From the IMG/VR virus record IMGVR_UViG_3300030060_006682, positions 17,095 through 37,498 of that record: a stretch of DNA of 20,404 bases. One strand, written 5' to 3'. Made by a program: the position numbers and the translations under genes. Below are positions 1-8,052 of the stretch, piece after piece (positions within the stretch are counted from its first letter, which is position 1; each line of letters starts with the position of its first letter). Below the pieces are notes generated by a model. It worked only from the letters and a program-made list of their open reading frames with translations. It ran no database searches and was not told the DNA's origin. The stretch comes from a virus.

Positions 1-69
1 GATATACGCAGGATGTGGTCTATATAACTCGGCACCCAGCAGCTTCGGAAAATCGTTATCTATAAACAT
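1..69 (-). CDS. N-terminus of a truncated gene, probable major capsid protein
   Basis: An ATG at 67-69 on the minus strand opens a frame that stays open to the window edge and encodes 23 residues beginning MFIDNDFPKLLG. It follows portal, candidate scaffold and two small genes in the same direction, which is where the major capsid protein normally lies in tailed phages. No capsid motif is visible in so short a piece, so the product name rests on gene order alone. There is no clear Shine-Dalgarno sequence. A 140-bp gap separates it from the previous gene, long for this block, which fits a strongly expressed gene with its own leader or promoter. Confidence 0.55.
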   Translation of the reverse strand, partial: MFIDNDFPKLLGAELYRPHPAYI

Positions 70-209: not shown

Positions 210-416
210 TTATGCGTATCCGTTTAACTGATTTGTTACTGTATATTCAGTTGGAGGGACAGTACCAATACGTCCATAAGGATTAATTAATCCATCAGAT
301 GGTTGCATCGTAGCTTGAGAAGTTTCTTCAGCTGCTCTCATTGCATCAAACTCAGCTGCAAATTTTTGAAAATCTTTTGCTTTTTTTGTTGCTTTTTTAG
401 CTTTATTGGAATCCAT
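210..416 (-). CDS. Hypothetical 68-residue protein of the morphogenesis operon
   Basis: I do not recognise this protein. The first 20 residues are Lys/Ala-rich (MDSNKAKKATKKAKDF), likely helical and basic. The remainder is polar with a Pro/Tyr/Asn-rich tail. Its ATG directly follows the TAA of the previous gene with no spacer, suggesting translational coupling. An AAAGG-type ribosome binding site lies about 10 nt upstream, inside the end of that gene. Its place between the candidate scaffold region and the probable capsid gene suggests a head-assembly accessory, decoration or small virion protein, but the sequence does not show which. Confidence 0.7.
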   Translation of the reverse strand: MDSNKAKKATKKAKDFQKFAAEFDAMRAAEETSQATMQPSDGLINPYGRIGTVPPTEYTVTNQLNGYA

Positions 417-845
417 TTACTTTTTACCTTTTCTTGATTCTAAAGGAGGCTGACCTATGGGTAACTGCATAGTTCCGGCTAAAGGCATGTTTTGACCATA
501 TATTAATTGTTCATTAGCGGCTATCTGTTGTTGTGTTATTTGTGCATTCATTACGTTCCTAGGCATCAACATAGCGTTAGCAGGTAAAGGTGAGCCTGGA
601 AGATTTAATTTTAAATAAGATGCATCTAAATCAGAGGGCATAGCTGCTGATCCTGAAACTCTTGTATCTCCCTGTTCCATTCGTCGGTTTGCATATTCAT
701 CTCTATTGCCAGCAAATACCTGCTCACGAAGATCAGATCCTCCAAAACCTATAAGGTTTGGTGATCCTATTAATCCTCCTGCTGTTCCAATCGTATTTAA
801 AAATTGATCAGCTTTTTGTGATGTGCTCGGTTTTTTCTTCTTCAT
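417..845 (-). CDS. Hypothetical 142-residue protein between candidate scaffold and capsid genes
   Basis: I do not recognise this protein. It starts with a Lys-rich stretch (MKKKKPSTSQK), has a Gly-rich segment around residues 20-36, then a Pro/Met/Gln-rich half with little predicted globular structure, and ends in a basic RKGKK. Composition and position are compatible with a small virion or head-assembly protein. Its start lies just after an apparent intrinsic terminator (849-876), so transcripts reaching it must pass that hairpin. No Shine-Dalgarno sequence is visible. The next gene begins directly at its stop codon. Confidence 0.75.
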   Translation of the reverse strand: MKKKKPSTSQKADQFLNTIGTAGGLIGSPNLIGFGGSDLREQVFAGNRDEYANRRMEQGDTRVSGSAAMPSDLDASYLKLNLPGSPLPANAMLMPRNVMNAQITQQQIAANEQLIYGQNMPLAGTMQLPIGQPPLESRKGKK

Positions 846-888: not shown

Positions 889-1881
889 TTAGGAATCCAT
901 TACTAAGAGCTTCTGACGGAAGATCTCAGGATTCTGTTGTGCTGCATTTAGATATTTCCATGCGTTCTGTGGGTCACGGTCTGCCGCAGTTCCGAAGTCA
1001 TTCCAAAAGTCTCCTGCATTTCTAGGAGCTTGTGGCTGTGGAGGAACAGGCATTTCAGGACGTGAAGGAGCCTGAGCTTGAGGCTGACCTGCTAAAGGTC
1101 TTTGCTGTACACCTTGATTAGCATAACCTGCTTGCTCTTCTTCTACTGGATAAGGACCATTAGGACCGAAGAACTCACATGTGTAATCTGCTAATACATC
1201 TGGATCAGTAAGAATCTGTTCATAAGCTTTATGCTCAGTAGACATCTCCTGAAGAAGATTAACAGCTTCCTGTAAGTTAGCGTTTGATTGAATTAATGAA
1301 TCTTCTAGCTGTACTGCATAGTTATTTAAAACTGCTGGAGCATCAGCACCAAAATGATTAATTACTTCAAGACTTGCCTCGCTTACCCCGTTTGCCATTA
1401 GCTGCTCGTTGGTTATCTCCTGAGAAGTTGGGGAATAACTGTTGGAGTATGCCTGGTTGTTGTTGGTCGAAGGCGTATAAGTCGGCGCTACCGCGTTGCT
1501 GTATTGGGCTGGTGTTTGGGAAGCGTAATTGGTTTGGTCGATTGGTTGATTCTGAATCGACTGTTGACCCTGGAACGGGAATTGAACTGGTGAACTCAGG
1601 AGTCCTACCACCCTGTTGAATGCGTCCTTGTATGGGTTCTCCGCTTGTGGAGCCGCCTGTTGTGGCTGGGGGCTGTACTGTGTAGGGTTGTATCCGTTGT
1701 TGATCCCCATCTGCGCTTGCACTTGTGGTGCTGGTGCCGCCACTGGTTGGGATGGAGCCACCCATTGGGAATTCGTTGAAACGGCCGGTGCCTGCGCCGC
1801 TGTCTGAGCCACGTAGCTGGTCGGCTGGGTCTGGGATACTTGGGGTGCCGATTGGGTCGGCGCTGCGGTATCGGCCTGCAT
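889..1881 (-). CDS. Gln/Pro/Ala-rich protein, candidate scaffold; first half overlaps the portal gene
   Basis: The 330-residue product is extremely Gln/Pro/Ala/Ser-rich over residues 1-150 and looks disordered. Residues 165-230 are acidic and probably helical (ending in QEMSTEHKAYEQILTDPDVL). The motif EFFGPNGPYP follows near residue 240, then a Pro/Gln linker and a helical C-terminus (NAGDFWNDFG to VMDS). A low-complexity protein encoded between portal and capsid genes fits a scaffolding or assembly protein, but I see no family signature. The start is well supported: AGAGGT at 1887-1892 lies 5 nt before the ATG. Its first 171 codons lie inside the portal gene in the +1 frame relative to it. 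The 5' half is much richer in GC than its surroundings. An intrinsic terminator follows the stop. Confidence 0.8.
   Translation of the reverse strand: MQADTAAPTQSAPQVSQTQPTSYVAQTAAQAPAVSTNSQWVAPSQPVAAPAPQVQAQMGINNGYNPTQYSPQPQQAAPQAENPYKDAFNRVVGLLSSPVQFPFQGQQSIQNQPIDQTNYASQTPAQYSNAVAPTYTPSTNNNQAYSNSYSPTSQEITNEQLMANGVSEASLEVINHFGADAPAVLNNYAVQLEDSLIQSNANLQEAVNLLQEMSTEHKAYEQILTDPDVLADYTCEFFGPNGPYPVEEEQAGYANQGVQQRPLAGQPQAQAPSRPEMPVPPQPQAPRNAGDFWNDFGTAADRDPQNAWKYLNAAQQNPEIFRQKLLVMDS
1367..1881 (-). other. 515-bp same-strand dual-coding region (portal C-terminus / candidate scaffold N-terminus)
   Basis: Two open frames run in the same direction: the last 171 or so codons of the portal gene and the first 171 of the next gene, offset by one base. 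Both encode Gln/Pro/Ser/Thr/Gly-rich, probably disordered chains. Hand counts of G+C are 37/60 at 1621-1680, 38/60 at 1741-1800 and 38/60 at 1801-1860, compared with 14/60 at 2401-2460 in the single-coding part of the portal gene. This shift is what constraint from two frames could produce. Confidence 0.8.
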
Positions 1882-3616
1882 AGGTTACCTCTTTTTGTAA
1901 ACTTTCTAATGTTCGATATAAGAATGGAGTTAAATCCAATCTGGGGTCTGCAGCCATCGGTAAATTCGGTTGCTGCGGATGTGGTGTTCGCATCTCTTGA
2001 TTTATTAAATCAATAAATTGCGAATATGCCCTCTGTACTTCTCCAACCATCCGGAAGGGAAAACCAGAGAGCATGGCAGCAATCTCATCGTCCGTTTTAG
2101 ATGGGAATAAATACTTCAGTGCTTCTATGCTATCAACGCCTAATTCTTGAAGATTTCGAGTAAAGATAGATTGATTGAGTTTGTCTTGAGCAGTGTCCTC
2201 ATAAACAGGTCCCATCCATCTCCATAAAACAGTTCTATCCCCATCAGGTATCAAGCCTAAAACCCCGTCAGGGATTTCTTTTTTCTCTACTGCTTCATCA
2301 ACAGCAGCTTGTAATTTTTGCTCATATTTTGCTTTTTGTTTATCATACTTTTCAAGTGCTTTTGGATCTTCACTATTTTCTGGTAAAACAGGATATTTTA
2401 TTCCTGAAGCAAAAGCCAATGATTTTCTAAAAATTTGTTCTTCTTGAAAAATAATTAATTCAAAACATTTACATATTCCATATTGATAAATTTGTAAGCA
2501 TTTCTTTTTAGCTGTTGCACTTACTCGACCATAAGCAGATTTAATTTCTGTAGCAGTTACATTAGTAATACTTAAATCATCTATACCACCTAAAGCTAAT
2601 CTGATTTCACTTCTTAATTGTTCAGAAAATCTAGCCTGATCAGAACTTACAGCATTAGGTGTAATAAATCCAACACGATCTGAAGGTTCTAAATTAGCAA
2701 TAACTCTAGGAACTCTCATTCCACTTCCTGGTTTACCAGTATATCCAGGTTGTTGTCTTGTTATAGGATCTTGCTTATATGTAGAGCTAAACAAGTTAAC
2801 ATCAGATTGAAAACCGGACTGACTAGATATACTAGGACGTTGAGCTGTATCACTATCGCTCTCAACAATATCTTGTTTGGGTCTAGAAGAAAGTAAAGTG
2901 GGATTACCAAAGAATGATAAATTAGCTCTAATATTTTTTACCATTTCATCGTGAGCTAATATTTGATTTGCCAAGAAATCAAACTCACCTGAACCATCAG
3001 TTCCAAATGCATCCGGATTATTAAATACCTCAACACATGGAATAAATTCCATAGAATTTTCTACGATTTTTTTATCAAAAGCAGCAAAATTTATATTATC
3101 TTGTTCAAAAGTTATTTCTTGTTCAGTATGTATCTCTTCTATTTCTTTAGCGGTAATTTTTAATCTCATATATCTTTTATCTGTATTTAAACCAACTCCG
3201 GCAAAACCTTTAGAAGATTTTACTTTGTAAGGATAAATAATAATAACTTCCTGTAGATCTCCTTCAGGTGTGTAATAAGTCCTATATGCGTCTTTATTAA
3301 ACCAATAAATTCTATAAGATTTTTCTGTAGGTCTTATATAAAATAATCCTTTTCCATATGCTAAAAATCTATCCCATATTGCATCAAGTCTTGCATCAAG
3401 CTGATTAAATTTTATTACTTGTTGAATAAAATCAAATCTTTGAGTTCCTAAATTATCTTGCTGAGGATAGAACTCAACTCCCTGCCTAATCCCAAACATT
3501 TTCATTTGGGATAAATGAGAACTTAACAGCATAGTATCTGCTGAACCACGGCCATCTCTATTTATGACCGATTTGATCATATCCTCTAAGGCAGTTTTGC
3601 TATTACTTTCACTCAT
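1367..3616 (-). CDS. Probable portal protein
   Basis: Portal proteins form the dodecameric ring at one capsid vertex through which the terminase packages DNA and to which the tail attaches. This 749-residue product lies two genes downstream of the large terminase, the usual place. Visible features are a mixed alpha/beta N-terminal half with FIPCVEVFNNP (about 191-201), a segment ending in TNVTATEIKSAYG (TATE at 354-357) of a type found in podovirus-like portals, and a charged helical region (residues 410-450). From about residue 580 the chain becomes Gly/Ser/Thr/Gln-rich and disordered, ending in basic KRGKRGKS. That tail is the part that overlaps the next gene. The size suits podovirus-type portals. 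Identification rests on position and these short patterns; there is no clear Shine-Dalgarno sequence. Confidence 0.75.
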   Translation of the reverse strand: MSESNSKTALEDMIKSVINRDGRGSADTMLLSSHLSQMKMFGIRQGVEFYPQQDNLGTQRFDFIQQVIKFNQLDARLDAIWDRFLAYGKGLFYIRPTEKSYRIYWFNKDAYRTYYTPEGDLQEVIIIYPYKVKSSKGFAGVGLNTDKRYMRLKITAKEIEEIHTEQEITFEQDNINFAAFDKKIVENSMEFIPCVEVFNNPDAFGTDGSGEFDFLANQILAHDEMVKNIRANLSFFGNPTLLSSRPKQDIVESDSDTAQRPSISSQSGFQSDVNLFSSTYKQDPITRQQPGYTGKPGSGMRVPRVIANLEPSDRVGFITPNAVSSDQARFSEQLRSEIRLALGGIDDLSITNVTATEIKSAYGRVSATAKKKCLQIYQYGICKCFELIIFQEEQIFRKSLAFASGIKYPVLPENSEDPKALEKYDKQKAKYEQKLQAAVDEAVEKKEIPDGVLGLIPDGDRTVLWRWMGPVYEDTAQDKLNQSIFTRNLQELGVDSIEALKYLFPSKTDDEIAAMLSGFPFRMVGEVQRAYSQFIDLINQEMRTPHPQQPNLPMAADPRLDLTPFLYRTLESLQKEVTYAGRYRSADPIGTPSIPDPADQLRGSDSGAGTGRFNEFPMGGSIPTSGGTSTTSASADGDQQRIQPYTVQPPATTGGSTSGEPIQGRIQQGGRTPEFTSSIPVPGSTVDSESTNRPNQLRFPNTSPIQQRGSADLYAFDQQQPGILQQLFPNFSGDNQRAANGKRGKRGKS
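1887..1892 (-). promoter_or_regulatory. Internal ribosome binding site in the portal gene
   Basis: The minus strand reads AGAGGT, then AACCT, then ATG. This is a good Shine-Dalgarno core at normal spacing, placed inside the portal coding sequence. It supports independent initiation of the overlapping gene rather than a frameshift product. Most other genes in this block lack such a site, which makes it stand out. Confidence 0.7.
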
Positions 3617-3633
3617 TAGATTAAAAGTTTGGA

Positions 3634-3816
3634 CTATTGATCAATGTCATATCCTGCATGTAATCTTTTTAATTTGATTTCATCTCCCTCACATTCTACC
3701 TCAAACCTTTCGTTTGGTTGTAGTGCCATGTCATGACATAGTTCATCAGGGAGGGAAATCACAGCAGAACCATATTGGTCTTGCTCTAATTCTAGATTGT
3801 AGTAAGTAGGTGACAT
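3634..3816 (-). CDS. Small AbrB/SpoVT-like swapped-hairpin protein
   Basis: The 60-residue product has the pattern of an AbrB-type DNA-binding fold: a strand ending in GSAVISLPDELC, a short helix with MALQPNERFEVE, and a closing strand GDEIKLKRL. In this family the dimer, made of interleaved hairpins, usually binds operator DNA; examples are antitoxins of the MazE type and transition-state regulators. No toxin gene accompanies it: the neighbours are the large terminase upstream (27-bp gap) and the portal gene downstream (17-bp gap). It could be a regulator of late genes, a packaging-associated DNA binder, or a fold reused for another role. The fold assignment is by eye. Confidence 0.6.
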   Translation of the reverse strand: MSPTYYNLELEQDQYGSAVISLPDELCHDMALQPNERFEVECEGDEIKLKRLHAGYDIDQ

Positions 3817-3843
3817 TAATCTTGTTAGTAATAGTTTAAGTCG

Positions 3844-5367
3844 TCAATACTCTAACTCAAGTTTTCCGCGAGTCATTAACCCATTACATAGCCAAACTAA
3901 TGCATCTACGCAATCATCATGTGAGCTAACCCCAAAATTTACTATTTCATCAGTAAGAGGACCAAACTTTCTAAATTTATTAAAAATAATCTTTCTTTGT
4001 TCAAATAAACCCATAATTCCTCTAAATCTTGCAACCTTATCTCCCCTGAATCCTTTTACTGGATGCCAAATTAAATTATGTAATCCATGATCACCTAAAC
4101 ATATTCTTTTAAAGTCTGCCTCTAGAGAAGCTTGATAAGCAACTGCTTCAGACCAAACATGAGTTGCAGTTCCGGTAGGAAAATAACTTTTACCATCTTT
4201 ATAAACCACTCCCCATTCTTCCATCATTTCCATTAATAATTCTAATTTTTCTAAATTACCCATGACTCTTACTCTTTTACAATCAATAATATGAATTTTA
4301 TCTCGAACTCGTCCACCCATAACAAAAACTGTATAATCATTTTGTTCTCTAACTCCAGCAGATAGATCAACTCCCACGCCTAATGCATCAAACTCTGTAG
4401 AAATAGTTCCTTTAACAATTAGATCTGGAGACAAAGATAGTTCACTTGTCTGTACAATTTGATTTTGATATTGAAAACTAAATGCAACTGGAGCAACTCT
4501 TCTTCTCTCTTCTAAATACTTAAGTGACCACATATCAGGCCAGTAGGATATTTCCTCTCCTTGTTCATCAACAGTAATAGCTGATTGTATTATTTGTGTC
4601 CATCCATTAGCAGGTAGAAAAGCTCTAGCGTGTATATCATCATGGCGAAATCTTGTGCCTAAACAAATAGCCCTAGCACCTTCAAACATAGTAGGAACAA
4701 TAACGGCATTCCAGTTATCTTCCATAGCTTGACGAATATCTTTATTTTTAATATCATCTGAACTTTTTATAGCGTCATCAATAATACATAGATGTGATCT
4801 TTTAGATGTAACAGCACCTTTTAAACCAGCACAACAAACACTAAACTCCTCCTCTCCTGTAGATTTTATTCCTGCAAATTTCCAATCAATACTCCAATAT
4901 TCGTTAGAATTAATTCCTTTTGCTATTTTTACTGTAGGAAAGATTTCTTTATAATTTTTACTTTCTTCTATAATTCTTTTTATTGCCGCACTCTTCGGTC
5001 TAGCAACATCAACAGTATATGAAATATATAAAATTTTTAAAGGTAATTTGTGAAGAGCATGTACACCTATAGCCCAAGCTGTATATAGACCTAAAACAGT
5101 TGACTTAGCAGATCCTCTAGGAGCAAGAATATCAATATTAGGTCCGGCTATTCCACGTAAGCAAACACTATCATCTCCTGTACATAAATATTTATGCCAT
5201 TCCATATGATGTTCTGCAGGAGGTTTTCCCCCTACAACATCACAAAAATACGCAAAATTTTTTCGCGCTTTTTCTATATCAATATTAGAAGTTTTCTTTA
5301 CAACTTGTTGTTTAGCAGCGGCACGAGCTGTGCGTCTGTAAACACTATAAATACTTGTACCTGCCAT
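3844..5367 (-). CDS. terL: Terminase large subunit (packaging ATPase-nuclease)
   Basis: This is the motor that pumps phage DNA through the portal and cuts the concatemer. The 507-residue length is normal for the family. The ATPase half has a Walker A loop APRGSAKST (82-90), a Walker B CIIDD (194-198) with adjacent acidic residues, and a coupling motif LGTRF (236-240). The RNase H-like nuclease half has its first metal-binding aspartate in GVGVDLS (D334), a probable second acidic residue near WSEAV (E407), and the C-terminal HDDCVDAL (483-490). All expected catalytic positions appear present. A candidate small subunit gene lies 24 bp upstream, and the AbrB-like and portal genes follow. The ATG has no obvious Shine-Dalgarno sequence, so coupling or a leader mechanism may be used. 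Confidence 0.95.
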   Translation of the reverse strand: MAGTSIYSVYRRTARAAAKQQVVKKTSNIDIEKARKNFAYFCDVVGGKPPAEHHMEWHKYLCTGDDSVCLRGIAGPNIDILAPRGSAKSTVLGLYTAWAIGVHALHKLPLKILYISYTVDVARPKSAAIKRIIEESKNYKEIFPTVKIAKGINSNEYWSIDWKFAGIKSTGEEEFSVCCAGLKGAVTSKRSHLCIIDDAIKSSDDIKNKDIRQAMEDNWNAVIVPTMFEGARAICLGTRFRHDDIHARAFLPANGWTQIIQSAITVDEQGEEISYWPDMWSLKYLEERRRVAPVAFSFQYQNQIVQTSELSLSPDLIVKGTISTEFDALGVGVDLSAGVREQNDYTVFVMGGRVRDKIHIIDCKRVRVMGNLEKLELLMEMMEEWGVVYKDGKSYFPTGTATHVWSEAVAYQASLEADFKRICLGDHGLHNLIWHPVKGFRGDKVARFRGIMGLFEQRKIIFNKFRKFGPLTDEIVNFGVSSHDDCVDALVWLCNGLMTRGKLELEY

Positions 5368-5391
5368 GAACGTAGCATAGCGTATTTATCA

Positions 5392-5877
5392 CTAAGATTC
5401 TTCTTGCAAAATTTTTGTCCATACGCCCATAGATGCCTCTTGTAGTGGTCCTTCTATTGGATCATCTCTAAAGATACTTAACATCTCTCTCAAAGCCCTG
5501 TCAGCGCCTGCAAGTATTAATCCTTGTTTATCAGTTAAAACTTTTTTATCATCTAATTGTTTAATTGCACCTCGTAATTCTTTTTGTAACATTGCAATTC
5601 TTGCAGCACCCATATCTTGTTTAACCATCCCCATTTGAATAGCTTCTCGTAAATTTGCTATATCAATTTGCATATTATCTATTTCTGTTTCTAAAACTAA
5701 ATGAAAATTTCTTTTTTTAAATTCTTTTTCTGACCATTCATTACATTCAACTATCGTCCCTTGAAACCCAAGAAAACGGGAAAATAAATATATTTGTATA
5801 GGAGAACCTGTTTTTTTACAGAACTGAAGAAAGGATTCGCGATCTTTGGAAGTTAAAGTCTGAATCCAATTCTTCAT
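5392..5877 (-). CDS. Candidate terminase small subunit
   Basis: The 161-residue product is mostly helical and charged. Residues 1-55 include a possible small helix-turn-helix-like section (LTSKDRESFLQFCKKTG). A central helical, coiled-coil-like stretch runs from about 60 to 115, and an acidic C-terminus ends in ILQEES. Length, helicity and a position immediately before terL suit a small terminase, the DNA-recognition ring that recruits the large subunit, but no diagnostic motif is visible. Its ATG overlaps the stop of the hendecad-repeat gene in an ATGA junction, so the two are probably translationally coupled. Confidence 0.55.
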   Translation of the reverse strand: MKNWIQTLTSKDRESFLQFCKKTGSPIQIYLFSRFLGFQGTIVECNEWSEKEFKKRNFHLVLETEIDNMQIDIANLREAIQMGMVKQDMGAARIAMLQKELRGAIKQLDDKKVLTDKQGLILAGADRALREMLSIFRDDPIEGPLQEASMGVWTKILQEES

Positions 5878-6986
5878 ACTCGGTATTGGCTCTGTGCCTG
5901 TTCGAAATCTCTATTCTCTTTATAGCGACGGAACAGCTCTCTTTGCAAGTCTATTGCTCTAGTTTCTCTACCTGATTCTCTTATTCCAGCTCTTTGCTCT
6001 TCTCCTGTAACTCTAGTTGTTTCTCTTTGTTGTCTACCTGTAGTCTCTATACCTAATCTCTGCTGTCTTCCTGTCTCTGCTGTAGTCAATCGTTCCTCTT
6101 GACCTCTTAACCCGATCTGCCTCTCTTGTCCTCCTAATAATTGAGCTTGGGTCAATCTTTGTTGAGTACCGGTAGTCTCTATTCCTCTTCTTTGCTCTAC
6201 TCCTGTAGCAGCGATACCTAGACGTTGCTGTCTACCTCTTTCTGCTTCTGTTAATCTAGTCTCTCTACCTGTTGTCTCTATACCTCTTCTTTGTTCTAGA
6301 CCTGTCGCAGCGATTCCTAAACGCTGTTGTGCTCCCCTTTCTCTTTCAGATAGACGTTCTTGAGTTCCTGTAGTCTCAATACCTAATCTTTGTTGTCTAC
6401 CTCTTTCTGCTGTGCTTAAACGTTCCTGTACTCCTGTAGTCTCTATACCTAATCTTTGCTGTTTTCCTCTCTCTGCAGTTGATAATCGTTCTTGAGTACC
6501 TGTAGTTTCAATACCTAATCTTTGCTGTTTTCCTCTCTCTGCAGTTGATAATCGTTCTTGAGTACCTGTAGTCTCAATACCTAAACGTTGTTGCCTTCCA
6601 GTTTCAGCTGTAGTAAGCCTATCCTGAGCACCGGCTGTCTCAAGACCTCTTCTATACTGAAGACCAGTCTCAGCAACCTCTGCACGACGTTCCTGACCTG
6701 TTACTCTTGCAGTAGCACGATCTTCTTCTCCAGCAACTTTTAGCTGTAATCTATTTTGAGCACCAGTAGATTCAGTCTGTCTGATGTTCTGACTAGTAAA
6801 GAATTCTTTATTAGTCCTATCCAACTCAGCACCTAATTCCATATTTAGACGCTGCTGTTTAGCACTCACTTCATTAAGCGCATTCTGACTCGACAACGAC
6901 TGTGTTGGCACCTGTGTAGTAGGAGCTGGAGGTGGTGGAGCTGGTGGATATATTATCTGTGGGGGTGGTGGAGACTTACTACCCAT
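5874..6986 (-). CDS. Probable virion protein with 25 consecutive 11-residue repeats
   Basis: The 370-residue product begins with a Pro-rich tail (runs of four prolines within residues 6-20) and a short helical section to residue 73. Residues 74-348 are then exactly 25 consecutive 11-residue units of the form [T/R/A/S]G-x-[Q/E]-x-R-[L/R/A] plus four residues, such as TGTQERLSTAE and RGKQQRLGIET. Only unit 20 (LLGGQERQIGL) is out of register. The last 22 residues are helical and charged. An 11-residue period suits a right-handed coiled coil or rod with one Gly per unit. I do not recognise an enzymatic role. The location in the packaging and virion block suggests a long fibrous or internal virion component. 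The start at 6984-6986 has no Shine-Dalgarno sequence. Confidence 0.75.
   Translation of the reverse strand: MGSKSPPPPQIIYPPAPPPPAPTTQVPTQSLSSQNALNEVSAKQQRLNMELGAELDRTNKEFFTSQNIRQTESTGAQNRLQLKVAGEEDRATARVTGQERRAEVAETGLQYRRGLETAGAQDRLTTAETGRQQRLGIETTGTQERLSTAERGKQQRLGIETTGTQERLSTAERGKQQRLGIETTGVQERLSTAERGRQQRLGIETTGTQERLSERERGAQQRLGIAATGLEQRRGIETTGRETRLTEAERGRQQRLGIAATGVEQRRGIETTGTQQRLTQAQLLGGQERQIGLRGQEERLTTAETGRQQRLGIETTGRQQRETTRVTGEEQRAGIRESGRETRAIDLQRELFRRYKENRDFEQAQSQYRV
5943..6767 (-). repeat. Tandem 33/66-bp coding repeats (25 hendecads)
   Basis: The DNA follows the protein period of 33 bp, and pairs of units alternate to give a 66-bp period. The segments 6449-6514 and 6515-6580 are nearly identical 66-bp copies, which points to recent tandem duplication. 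Units towards both ends are more diverged, as expected if the array grew from the middle. Confidence 0.85.
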
Positions 6987-7026
6987 TTTTTAACAAACTG
7001 TGTATTTAAATTTTAACTGCACTAAA

Positions 7027-8052
7027 CTAAGAAACATTACCAAAGGAACGTTGAATACCTGCAACACCAAATTGGTTAGCAGCTGTTTGCTGTGCTGCTG
7101 TTCCTAATGCTCTTCGATACTCAGAATCAGCAGCAAGATTCATTTGTTCTTGTTTTGATTTCATTATTCTTTGAATATTAGATGGTGTTGCTTCCATTTG
7201 GAATAAACCTCTAATTAACCTGTCTTGAGCTGTTTGGCCTGCTCTATTAAGAAAATATTGTCTAAGAGGCTCTGTACCAAACTGCAATGCTGTTGATCTT
7301 AAAGCTTCTCTATTTCTTTTATCAGACTCATACTTATCAAGAAGTTTAAATGCTTCTAATTGTTTTTTTACATTTGTGTCTATATCTCCTAATGGATCAG
7401 ATTTAGTAGTAGGTTCAATTCCTTCTTTTTCTAATTGTTTTTCAATTCTTTTTGCTTGTACAGGATTTACTAAATAATTTTTAGGATCAGTTATATCAAC
7501 TATTCTTGGTTTATCACCTTTCTTACCTCTTCTATCTAAATCTGTTCTGTCACCGGTAATAAGGTCAACTGTTCCGGCAAAAATCCTTGGTACTCCAGAA
7601 TAAGGAGTACCTTTCTTTACTATCTCAAACTGAGGTTCATTCCCACCTAATCCACTGTAAGGAATTTGTCTTATCTCCTCATTTGATCCTAATCCTTTAA
7701 ATTCCAAGTCTGGATTTATCTTAAGTACACCTGCTGTATCTCCAAATATTCTTCCTTGTTTGATATCTAAACCCTTTACAGTTTTAGGTAATCCTAATGC
7801 ACCCTCAACAAAACCTGAGTCACGCCCACTCATATCTATAGCTTCAAAACCTGGTGGTAATTTATTTATTCCACCAAAAGCTTCGGATATTTGTGAAAGA
7901 TCCTGTATCTTTCCATAAGGGCTAGTACTCTTAACTTTTTCTACAAGAGTAGGAGCTAGATCATCACTTAATCCAAGAACGTTTTTCCGAAAGTCATTAA
8001 AACGTTCTATAACACTTTTTCTTTCTTTTTTTTCTGATTTTTCTTCAGACAT
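7027..8052 (-). CDS. Hypothetical virion-block protein, 341 residues
   Basis: I do not recognise a family. The N-terminus is very charged (MSEEKSEKKERKSVIERF). The middle (60-190) is Gly/Asp/Pro-rich with mixed content, and the C-terminal third (230-341) is helical and Ala/Gln-rich, including MKSKQEQMNLAADSEYRRA followed by a Gln/Ala run. Such a C-terminal pattern recurs in the next two or three genes and suits proteins packed inside the virion or in a tail assembly. The ATG lies 2 bp after the stop of the Gly/Ala-rich gene, so the pair is probably cotranscribed and coupled. No catalytic motif was seen. Confidence 0.7.
   Translation of the reverse strand: MSEEKSEKKERKSVIERFNDFRKNVLGLSDDLAPTLVEKVKSTSPYGKIQDLSQISEAFGGINKLPPGFEAIDMSGRDSGFVEGALGLPKTVKGLDIKQGRIFGDTAGVLKINPDLEFKGLGSNEEIRQIPYSGLGGNEPQFEIVKKGTPYSGVPRIFAGTVDLITGDRTDLDRRGKKGDKPRIVDITDPKNYLVNPVQAKRIEKQLEKEGIEPTTKSDPLGDIDTNVKKQLEAFKLLDKYESDKRNREALRSTALQFGTEPLRQYFLNRAGQTAQDRLIRGLFQMEATPSNIQRIMKSKQEQMNLAADSEYRRALGTAAQQTAANQFGVAGIQRSFGNVS

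Follow-up and report, generated by a model that had tools for sequence, protein, structure and literature searches.

The microvirus phiX174 contains the A/B and D/E gene overlaps, and its internal scaffold B is read from within gene A in a different frame. Among the tailed phages, the lysis genes Rz and Rz1 of lambda form a +1 out-of-frame overlap of two functional proteins, while the lambda scaffold Nu3 is produced by internal initiation inside the neighbouring head gene C, which codes for a protease, and corresponds in frame to the C-terminal part of C. The gene 8-9-10 blocks of T7 and P-SSP7 have the order portal, scaffold and capsid; gp8 and gp9 of P-SSP7 have 1 nt in common, and genes 8 and 9 of T7 lie about 100 nt apart. 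Phage portals generally form a 12-copy, dodecameric ring situated at one vertex, whereas scaffolding proteins are typically elongated and helical, with a helical C-terminal part that binds the coat, and occur in proheads but not in mature virions.

The locus described here, in which the portal gene of an S-EIV1-like phage overlaps the next open reading frame on the same strand (working name P2, a candidate head scaffold gene), resembles each of these systems in part. Like phiX174, it appears to encode an assembly protein in a different frame within another essential gene and to employ internal initiation, but phiX174 is a small ssDNA phage with tight capsid limits and complete nesting, whereas the present case concerns a tailed dsDNA phage (79 kb in S-EIV1), has the portal as partner and involves overlapping gene ends. 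The +1 phase is shared with Rz/Rz1, which differ in being shorter, fully nested lysis genes, while the portal/P2 overlap spans 461-677 bp and connects two head genes. With C/Nu3 it has in common a scaffold-type protein apparently initiated inside a neighbouring head gene, but the portal and P2 frames differ and their sequences are unrelated. The gene order is that of T7 and P-SSP7, and T7-like portals are found among the structural matches. The portals of P-SSP7 and T7 comprise 522 and 536 residues, so that the overlap-encoded stretch of 171 residues is regarded as an extra tail, which those portals lack. Judged by these analogies, the overprinting would be of a known kind, with phiX174 B in A and lambda Rz1 in Rz as the nearest phage analogues and Nu3 in C as an in-frame parallel.

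Virus overlaps are generally much shorter. In a survey of 12,609 genomes, the median was 15.6 nt for DNA viruses, and +1 virus overlaps had a median of 14 nt and an interquartile range of 8-26 (PMC8903798). A study of prokaryotes judged all of 715 same-strand overlaps longer than 60 bp to be misannotations (PMC2478687). Long overlaps in tailed phages are usually taken as annotation errors, and bacterial ones on the same strand are frequently dismissed, whereas the portal/P2 overlap represents about 500 bp of DNA shown to be dual-coding across a lineage. No description of an out-of-frame overlap of portal and scaffold genes was found in the literature searched, which mostly excluded subscription journals. 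If the speculative pairing of portal and P2 considered below were true, this would be the first head of a tailed phage, to our knowledge, whose portal and scaffold sequences are interlocked.

The stretch of DNA analysed (20,404 nucleotides, hereafter the window) represents bases 17095-37498 of a 39,462-base IMG/VR virus record. The minus strand encodes, in this order, the terminase large subunit (3844..5367; 507 residues; phrog_38, E=7e-79), a 60-residue ORF, the portal protein (1367..3616), P2 (889..1881), two small genes of 142 codons (417..845, without family match) and 68 codons (210..416, without convincing family match), and the major capsid protein. Only the 5' end of the capsid gene (1..69) lies inside the window; its start at about 69 was assigned by similarity to the frame of S-EIV1, and the ORF in the flanking sequence matches phrog_1357 (major head protein, E=1.9e-11) as well as S-EIV1 DNA at 69% identity. 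The portal gene thus follows the terminase gene, as expected of a portal, and P2 occupies the scaffold-type position between the portal and major capsid genes.

The 749-residue product of 1367..3616, which starts with ATG, consists of a core of about residues 1-578 and the 171-residue C-terminal tail from the overlap, which is predicted to be disordered. It matches phrog_20475 (head and packaging, E=3e-212), and a Foldseek search with its predicted structure returned the portal of cyanophage P-SCSP1u (8i4m, E=1.7e-5) as best match, followed by the HRP29 tail, SaPI1/80alpha, SPP1 and T7. With a mean pLDDT of 44 the model is a low-confidence one, but the matches are coherent, nearly all top PDB entries being phage portals or portal-tail complexes, and as judged from this model the protein is assigned a portal fold. 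The last 20 residues of the portal (1367-1430) are basic across the lineage, with means of 5.9 K+R and 0.7 D+E, although their sequence varies.

The phage belongs, as judged from its portal, terminase and capsid genes, to the lineage of S-EIV1 (KJ410740), which infects the cyanobacterium Synechococcus and is the only isolate of a group of water viruses that is widespread but has received little study. Identities to S-EIV1 amount to 52% for the portal (AHV82224), 66% for the terminase and 69% for the capsid protein. In one survey, group G238, which includes S-EIV1, accounted for 3.3% of the marine cyanophage content (PMC5332604). S-EIV1 has orthologous portal, P2, terminase and capsid genes and carries the portal/P2 overlap as well, over 554 bp, and its unannotated full-length frame is 37% identical to P2 over nearly the entire length. 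The difference lies in the annotation: the overlap is absent from the S-EIV1 record because P2 is shortened there, starting at an internal ATG (AHV82225, 133 aa), so that 133 of 325 P2 residues are retained. Gene calling that avoids long overlaps can therefore cut real structural proteins.

In the window, the portal and P2 frames share positions 1367-1881 (515 bp), and P2 (330 aa, minus-strand ORF 1881..889) is read in the +1 frame relative to the portal. Its start codon (1879..1881) is supplied by the portal Tyr codon TAT, and a Shine-Dalgarno motif AGAGGT (1887..1892) is located 5 nt before the ATG, within the portal codons Lys575-Glu576-Val577. A first-pass annotation of this DNA, made from the sequence of the one genome, had reported the same-strand overlap with its own ATG, called its length unusual, and pointed to a well-spaced AGAGGT rare in this block and to a raised G+C content. 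These observations hold throughout: the coordinates are exact, 515 bp compare with the DNA-virus median given above, the predicted anti-Shine-Dalgarno pairing of -7.1 kcal/mol is stronger than at any of eight other gene starts in the block (-4.0 to +2.9 kcal/mol, most of them near 0), and the G+C figures are correct, with values of 0.595-0.605 at 1601-1900 against 0.26-0.39 across most of the remaining portal gene. An open second frame in a single genome is weak evidence, however, because sequences reshuffled synonymously with fixed portal amino acids often stay open, namely in 6-33% of trials for the window genome and in 6-50% for some genomes. The case therefore rests on the comparison among relatives.

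Relatives were collected in sets of 80 close, 80 P2-anchored and 80 S-EIV1-anchored sequences, complemented by further, less biased sets retrieved through degenerate motifs from the portal and from the C-terminus of P2. In 286 of 291 distinct homologous junctions the two genes keep a +1 overlap, which measures 461-677 bp with a median of 533, and the phase is +1 in every complete junction; the common reading frame of an in-frame nested scaffold arrangement of the lambda C/Nu3 type was not found. Among 92 dereplicated relatives, none has a single stop in the +1 frame across the overlap, compared with means of 6.1 stops in the +2 frame of the overlap and 9.3 in the +1 frame of the upstream portal core. 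These comparative data settle what one genome cannot, namely that the overlap is real. The part of P2 encoded in the overlap is conserved between clades, with 37.8% identity over 156 positions.

The five remaining junctions are a relative with a point stop (L032), three contig-edge cases (L326, L389 and L451) and L378, in which P2 starts with GTG. The last of these, on a 20 kb IMG/VR contig, represents a third deep lineage with a portal of about 44% identity; its P2 frame (34% identity to P2) is open through an overlap of 464 bp and starts 3 nt past the position of the usual ATG, preceded by a strong Shine-Dalgarno sequence. As L378 came from a single scan, more divergent members of the lineage probably exist.

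Relatives with one frame broken and the other intact, or with a portal ending short of the overlap, had been named in the first-pass annotation as evidence against two coding frames. A search for such cases turned up three apparent breaks, all of which could be accounted for. L032 carries a single CGA-to-TGA change, which lies in the portal shortly upstream of the overlap, and is intact from there on; in L063 (= L280) a deletion at about 3580-3671 fuses the frames of P2 and portal and disrupts both; and L250 shows frameshifts over the whole contig, which is probably unpolished long-read sequence. The deletion in L063/L280 is a single case and perhaps a repeat-driven assembly error. A portal truly ending before the overlap was not present among the relatives found, and searches of phages and of GTDB genomes, together with three scans of viral contigs by degenerate motif, yielded only overlap-bearing relatives and no outgroup without the overlap.

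Substitution rates were estimated as approximate pairwise values, rather than from a full phylogenetic model, using 33 and 17 pairs without common sequences. In independent clade 1 pairs differing by 3-10%, the portal core shows 0.022/0.008/0.166 differences per site at codon positions 1/2/3, and the single-coding part of P2, read in its own phase, shows 0.037/0.013/0.166 in clade 1 pairs. The overlap, counted in portal codon positions in the same way as the core, yields 0.057/0.017/0.033, a pattern that fits neither portal-only nor P2-only coding: third positions of the portal are second positions of P2, third positions of P2 are first positions of the portal, and both are held back. Changes that are synonymous for the portal and nonsynonymous for P2 occur at rates of 0.072 and 0.045 (clades 1 and 2), corresponding to 10-15% of the portal-core dS and thus to a 7-10 fold suppression. 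The opposite class (portal-nonsynonymous, P2-synonymous) reaches 0.112 and 0.097, changes nonsynonymous in both frames 0.028 and 0.015, and changes synonymous in both 0.59 and 0.60, compared with core dS values of 0.49 and 0.45. Because the doubly synonymous rate is close to that of the core while the mixed classes are low, the mutation rate is normal, each frame restraining the changes that are silent in the other. In addition, the alternate-frame ratio (SN/SS) is 0.07-0.12 for P2, whereas the same estimator gives 0.56-1.26 when the +1 and +2 frames of the portal core, which are non-coding, serve as controls (the last clade 2 control being incomplete). As judged from these rates, purifying selection acts on both frames.

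The base composition shows the same constraint. Across the 92 relatives, the G+C content of the overlap follows that of the core with a slope of 0.43, compared with 1.02 for single-coding P2, a difference to be expected where two frames constrain the same DNA. The G+C content of about 0.6 is attributed to the lack of a free wobble position in either frame together with two chains rich in G, P, S, A and Q, and a foreign insert is not needed to explain it.

The start signal of P2 is also preserved among the relatives, where the mean predicted anti-Shine-Dalgarno pairing is -7.6 kcal/mol at the P2 start and -2.1 kcal/mol at other internal ATGs. The Lys-Glu codons of the portal at the junction are AAA GAG, AAG GAA or AAG GAG in 92 of 92 dereplicated relatives; AAA GAA, which lacks the Shine-Dalgarno sequence, never occurs there (0/92), yet outside the junction it is the most frequent Lys-Glu pair of the portal. 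Likewise, the Tyr codon at the start site is invariably TAT (92/92), which is used for 65% (clade 1) and 52% (clade 2) of the Tyr codons elsewhere in the portal. This codon choice shows that the P2 Shine-Dalgarno sequence and ATG are maintained by selection. Most of the neighbouring structural genes (3616..8052, minus strand) start without a recognisable Shine-Dalgarno sequence (about 0 kcal/mol), unlike P2.

Both frames thus stay open in the alignment of relatives that the first-pass annotation had proposed as a check, with reduced synonymous change in each, and its assumption that both are translated gains support from the open frames, the selection on both and the retained start signal. We infer translation of the two frames from the selection evidence, and assign a probability of roughly 0.9 to an ancient dual coding of portal and P2 in the S-EIV1-like lineage, with P2 produced by internal initiation. 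Three other explanations must be weighed against it. The overlap might be an illusion of annotation, P2 actually starting at a downstream ATG beyond the end of the portal gene, while the +1 frame inside the overlap would be an untranslated by-product of stop-poor portal codons rich in G, S and P. AHV82225 of S-EIV1 is annotated in exactly this way, the verdict on 715 of 715 long prokaryotic overlaps (PMC2478687) points in the same direction, and so do the reshuffled single genomes, in which the frame often stays open. Nevertheless, an untranslated by-product accounts neither for the conservation of the overlap-encoded P2 residues across clades and the 7-10 fold suppression of P2-altering, portal-synonymous changes, nor for a Shine-Dalgarno sequence and ATG held by codon choice and the complete absence of stops in 92 relatives, which leaves this explanation very improbable.

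A programmed frameshift, in which ribosomes slip from the portal into the P2 frame and generate a portal-P2 fusion with an incidental ATG, is hardly more probable than such an illusion, although the frames are indeed +1 to each other and tailed phages employ frameshifting in head and tail genes. It is opposed by the strong Shine-Dalgarno sequence and start at the junction, conserved through codon choice, and by a stop that closes the P2 frame two codons upstream of its ATG (TAA at 1885..1887 in the window), which is present at this distance in 182 of 187 distinct relatives and nine codons upstream in the other five. Because of this stop, slippage upstream of the ATG cannot yield P2. Synonymous suppression by itself cannot separate a second protein from an RNA or DNA element, such as a structure, a packaging signal or a regulatory signal. 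Such an element would suppress the doubly synonymous sites too, however, and these vary at 0.59-0.60 as compared with core dS values of 0.45-0.49, while the substitutions follow the codon phase of P2, making a nucleotide element the least probable of the three.

According to the favoured reading, dual coding with internal initiation, one transcript would bear both genes. Ribosomes translating the portal would read frame 0 to the stop at 1367 and produce a portal with a disordered, basic-ended tail of 171 residues, while other ribosomes would enter at the internal Shine-Dalgarno sequence (1892-1887) and synthesize P2 in the +1 frame from the ATG at 1881. Because ribosomes would enter P2 at a separate site, its output need not follow that of the portal and could exceed the 12 portal copies, which would suit a scaffold, as this is required in far larger numbers than the portal.

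The function of P2 is less certain than its coding. The first 171 residues are encoded in the overlap and the rest is single-coding, acidic and helical. In the AF2 model (mean pLDDT 53), residues 2-82 and 96-155 are predicted to be disordered (pLDDT<50), and helices are predicted at 181-225, 227-238, 289-302, 304-315 and 318-329. Net charge averages -5.8 over the segment encoded in the overlap and -12.4 over the remainder, giving a total of about -18. Disorder is in known excess among overlapping proteins (PMC8227390), and the predicted disorder of both overlap-encoded chains is in line with the view that disordered chains tolerate a double constraint. The first-pass annotation had suggested a scaffold. 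Place, predicted helices and acidity fit this suggestion, but it gains no sequence match to the gp9 proteins: hhalign profile comparisons of P2 with P-SSP7 gp9 and T7 gp9 showed no similarity, and PHROG, Pfam and solved structures yielded no convincing match beyond its own lineage. The sole good viral fold match is a 133-residue entry of 36% identity, a length equal to that of the shortened S-EIV1 protein. Given that it lies between the portal and capsid genes, and given its size, predicted helices and acidity, P2 is probably a head scaffolding protein. There is nevertheless a substantial, if smaller, chance that it is dual-coded but serves as a minor head, core or ejection protein retained in the virion. 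The missing homology to known scaffolds and the disordered Q/A/P-rich N-terminus, which is atypical of T7-like scaffolds, speak for such a role, whereas the intermediate position between portal and capsid genes, a size near that of T7 gp9, the long central and C-terminal helices and the net charge of about -18 speak against it.

It was also proposed in the first-pass annotation that overprinting created either a disordered portal tail or a new N-terminus of P2. Dual coding and predicted disorder agree with this proposal, but the clues as to which frame came later conflict. Per-codon usage is slightly more typical of the respective genome when the overlap is read as portal, which holds for 73% of clade 1 genomes and for 89% in clade 2, and leans slightly toward an older portal frame, whereas selection is stricter on P2 (0.15-0.25 as compared with 0.32-0.39 for the portal), and no verdict on the order of the frames is therefore given. 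As a speculation that we consider rather unlikely, the basic-ended portal tail and the disordered N-terminus of the acidic P2 might bind each other or the same partner and thereby nucleate the prohead at the portal vertex, with strong internal initiation setting the ratio of P2 to portal; portal and P2 would then be an assembly pair locked together by the DNA they have in common. With hundreds of sequences and one cultured phage, the locus offers a data-rich case for the evolution of two disordered proteins on one DNA, and it is also suited to asking whether entangled assembly genes serve prohead formation.

Some further observations concern other genes of the lineage. The major capsid gene of S-EIV1 is misannotated (L002:11320-12465, KJ410740 about 60865-62010): a plus-strand frame is open throughout this region and 69% identical to the capsid protein of the window phage, while the record splits it into a minus-strand ORF (AHV82227) and the C-terminal half only (AHV82228). 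The terminase large subunit of S-EIV1 (AHV82220, L002:4535-7072) contains an intein (PF14890, E=1.4e-11, residues 202-526), which is absent from the 507-residue terminase of the window phage. Two contigs of the S-EIV1-like lineage (L237 and L239) are binned in a Bacteroidetes MAG (QQUU01), probably as a binning error or else as a hint at a host. Finally, positions 5874-6986 of the window encode a protein of 370 residues that contains numerous, almost identical repeats of the type TTGTQERLSTAERGKQQRLGIE.
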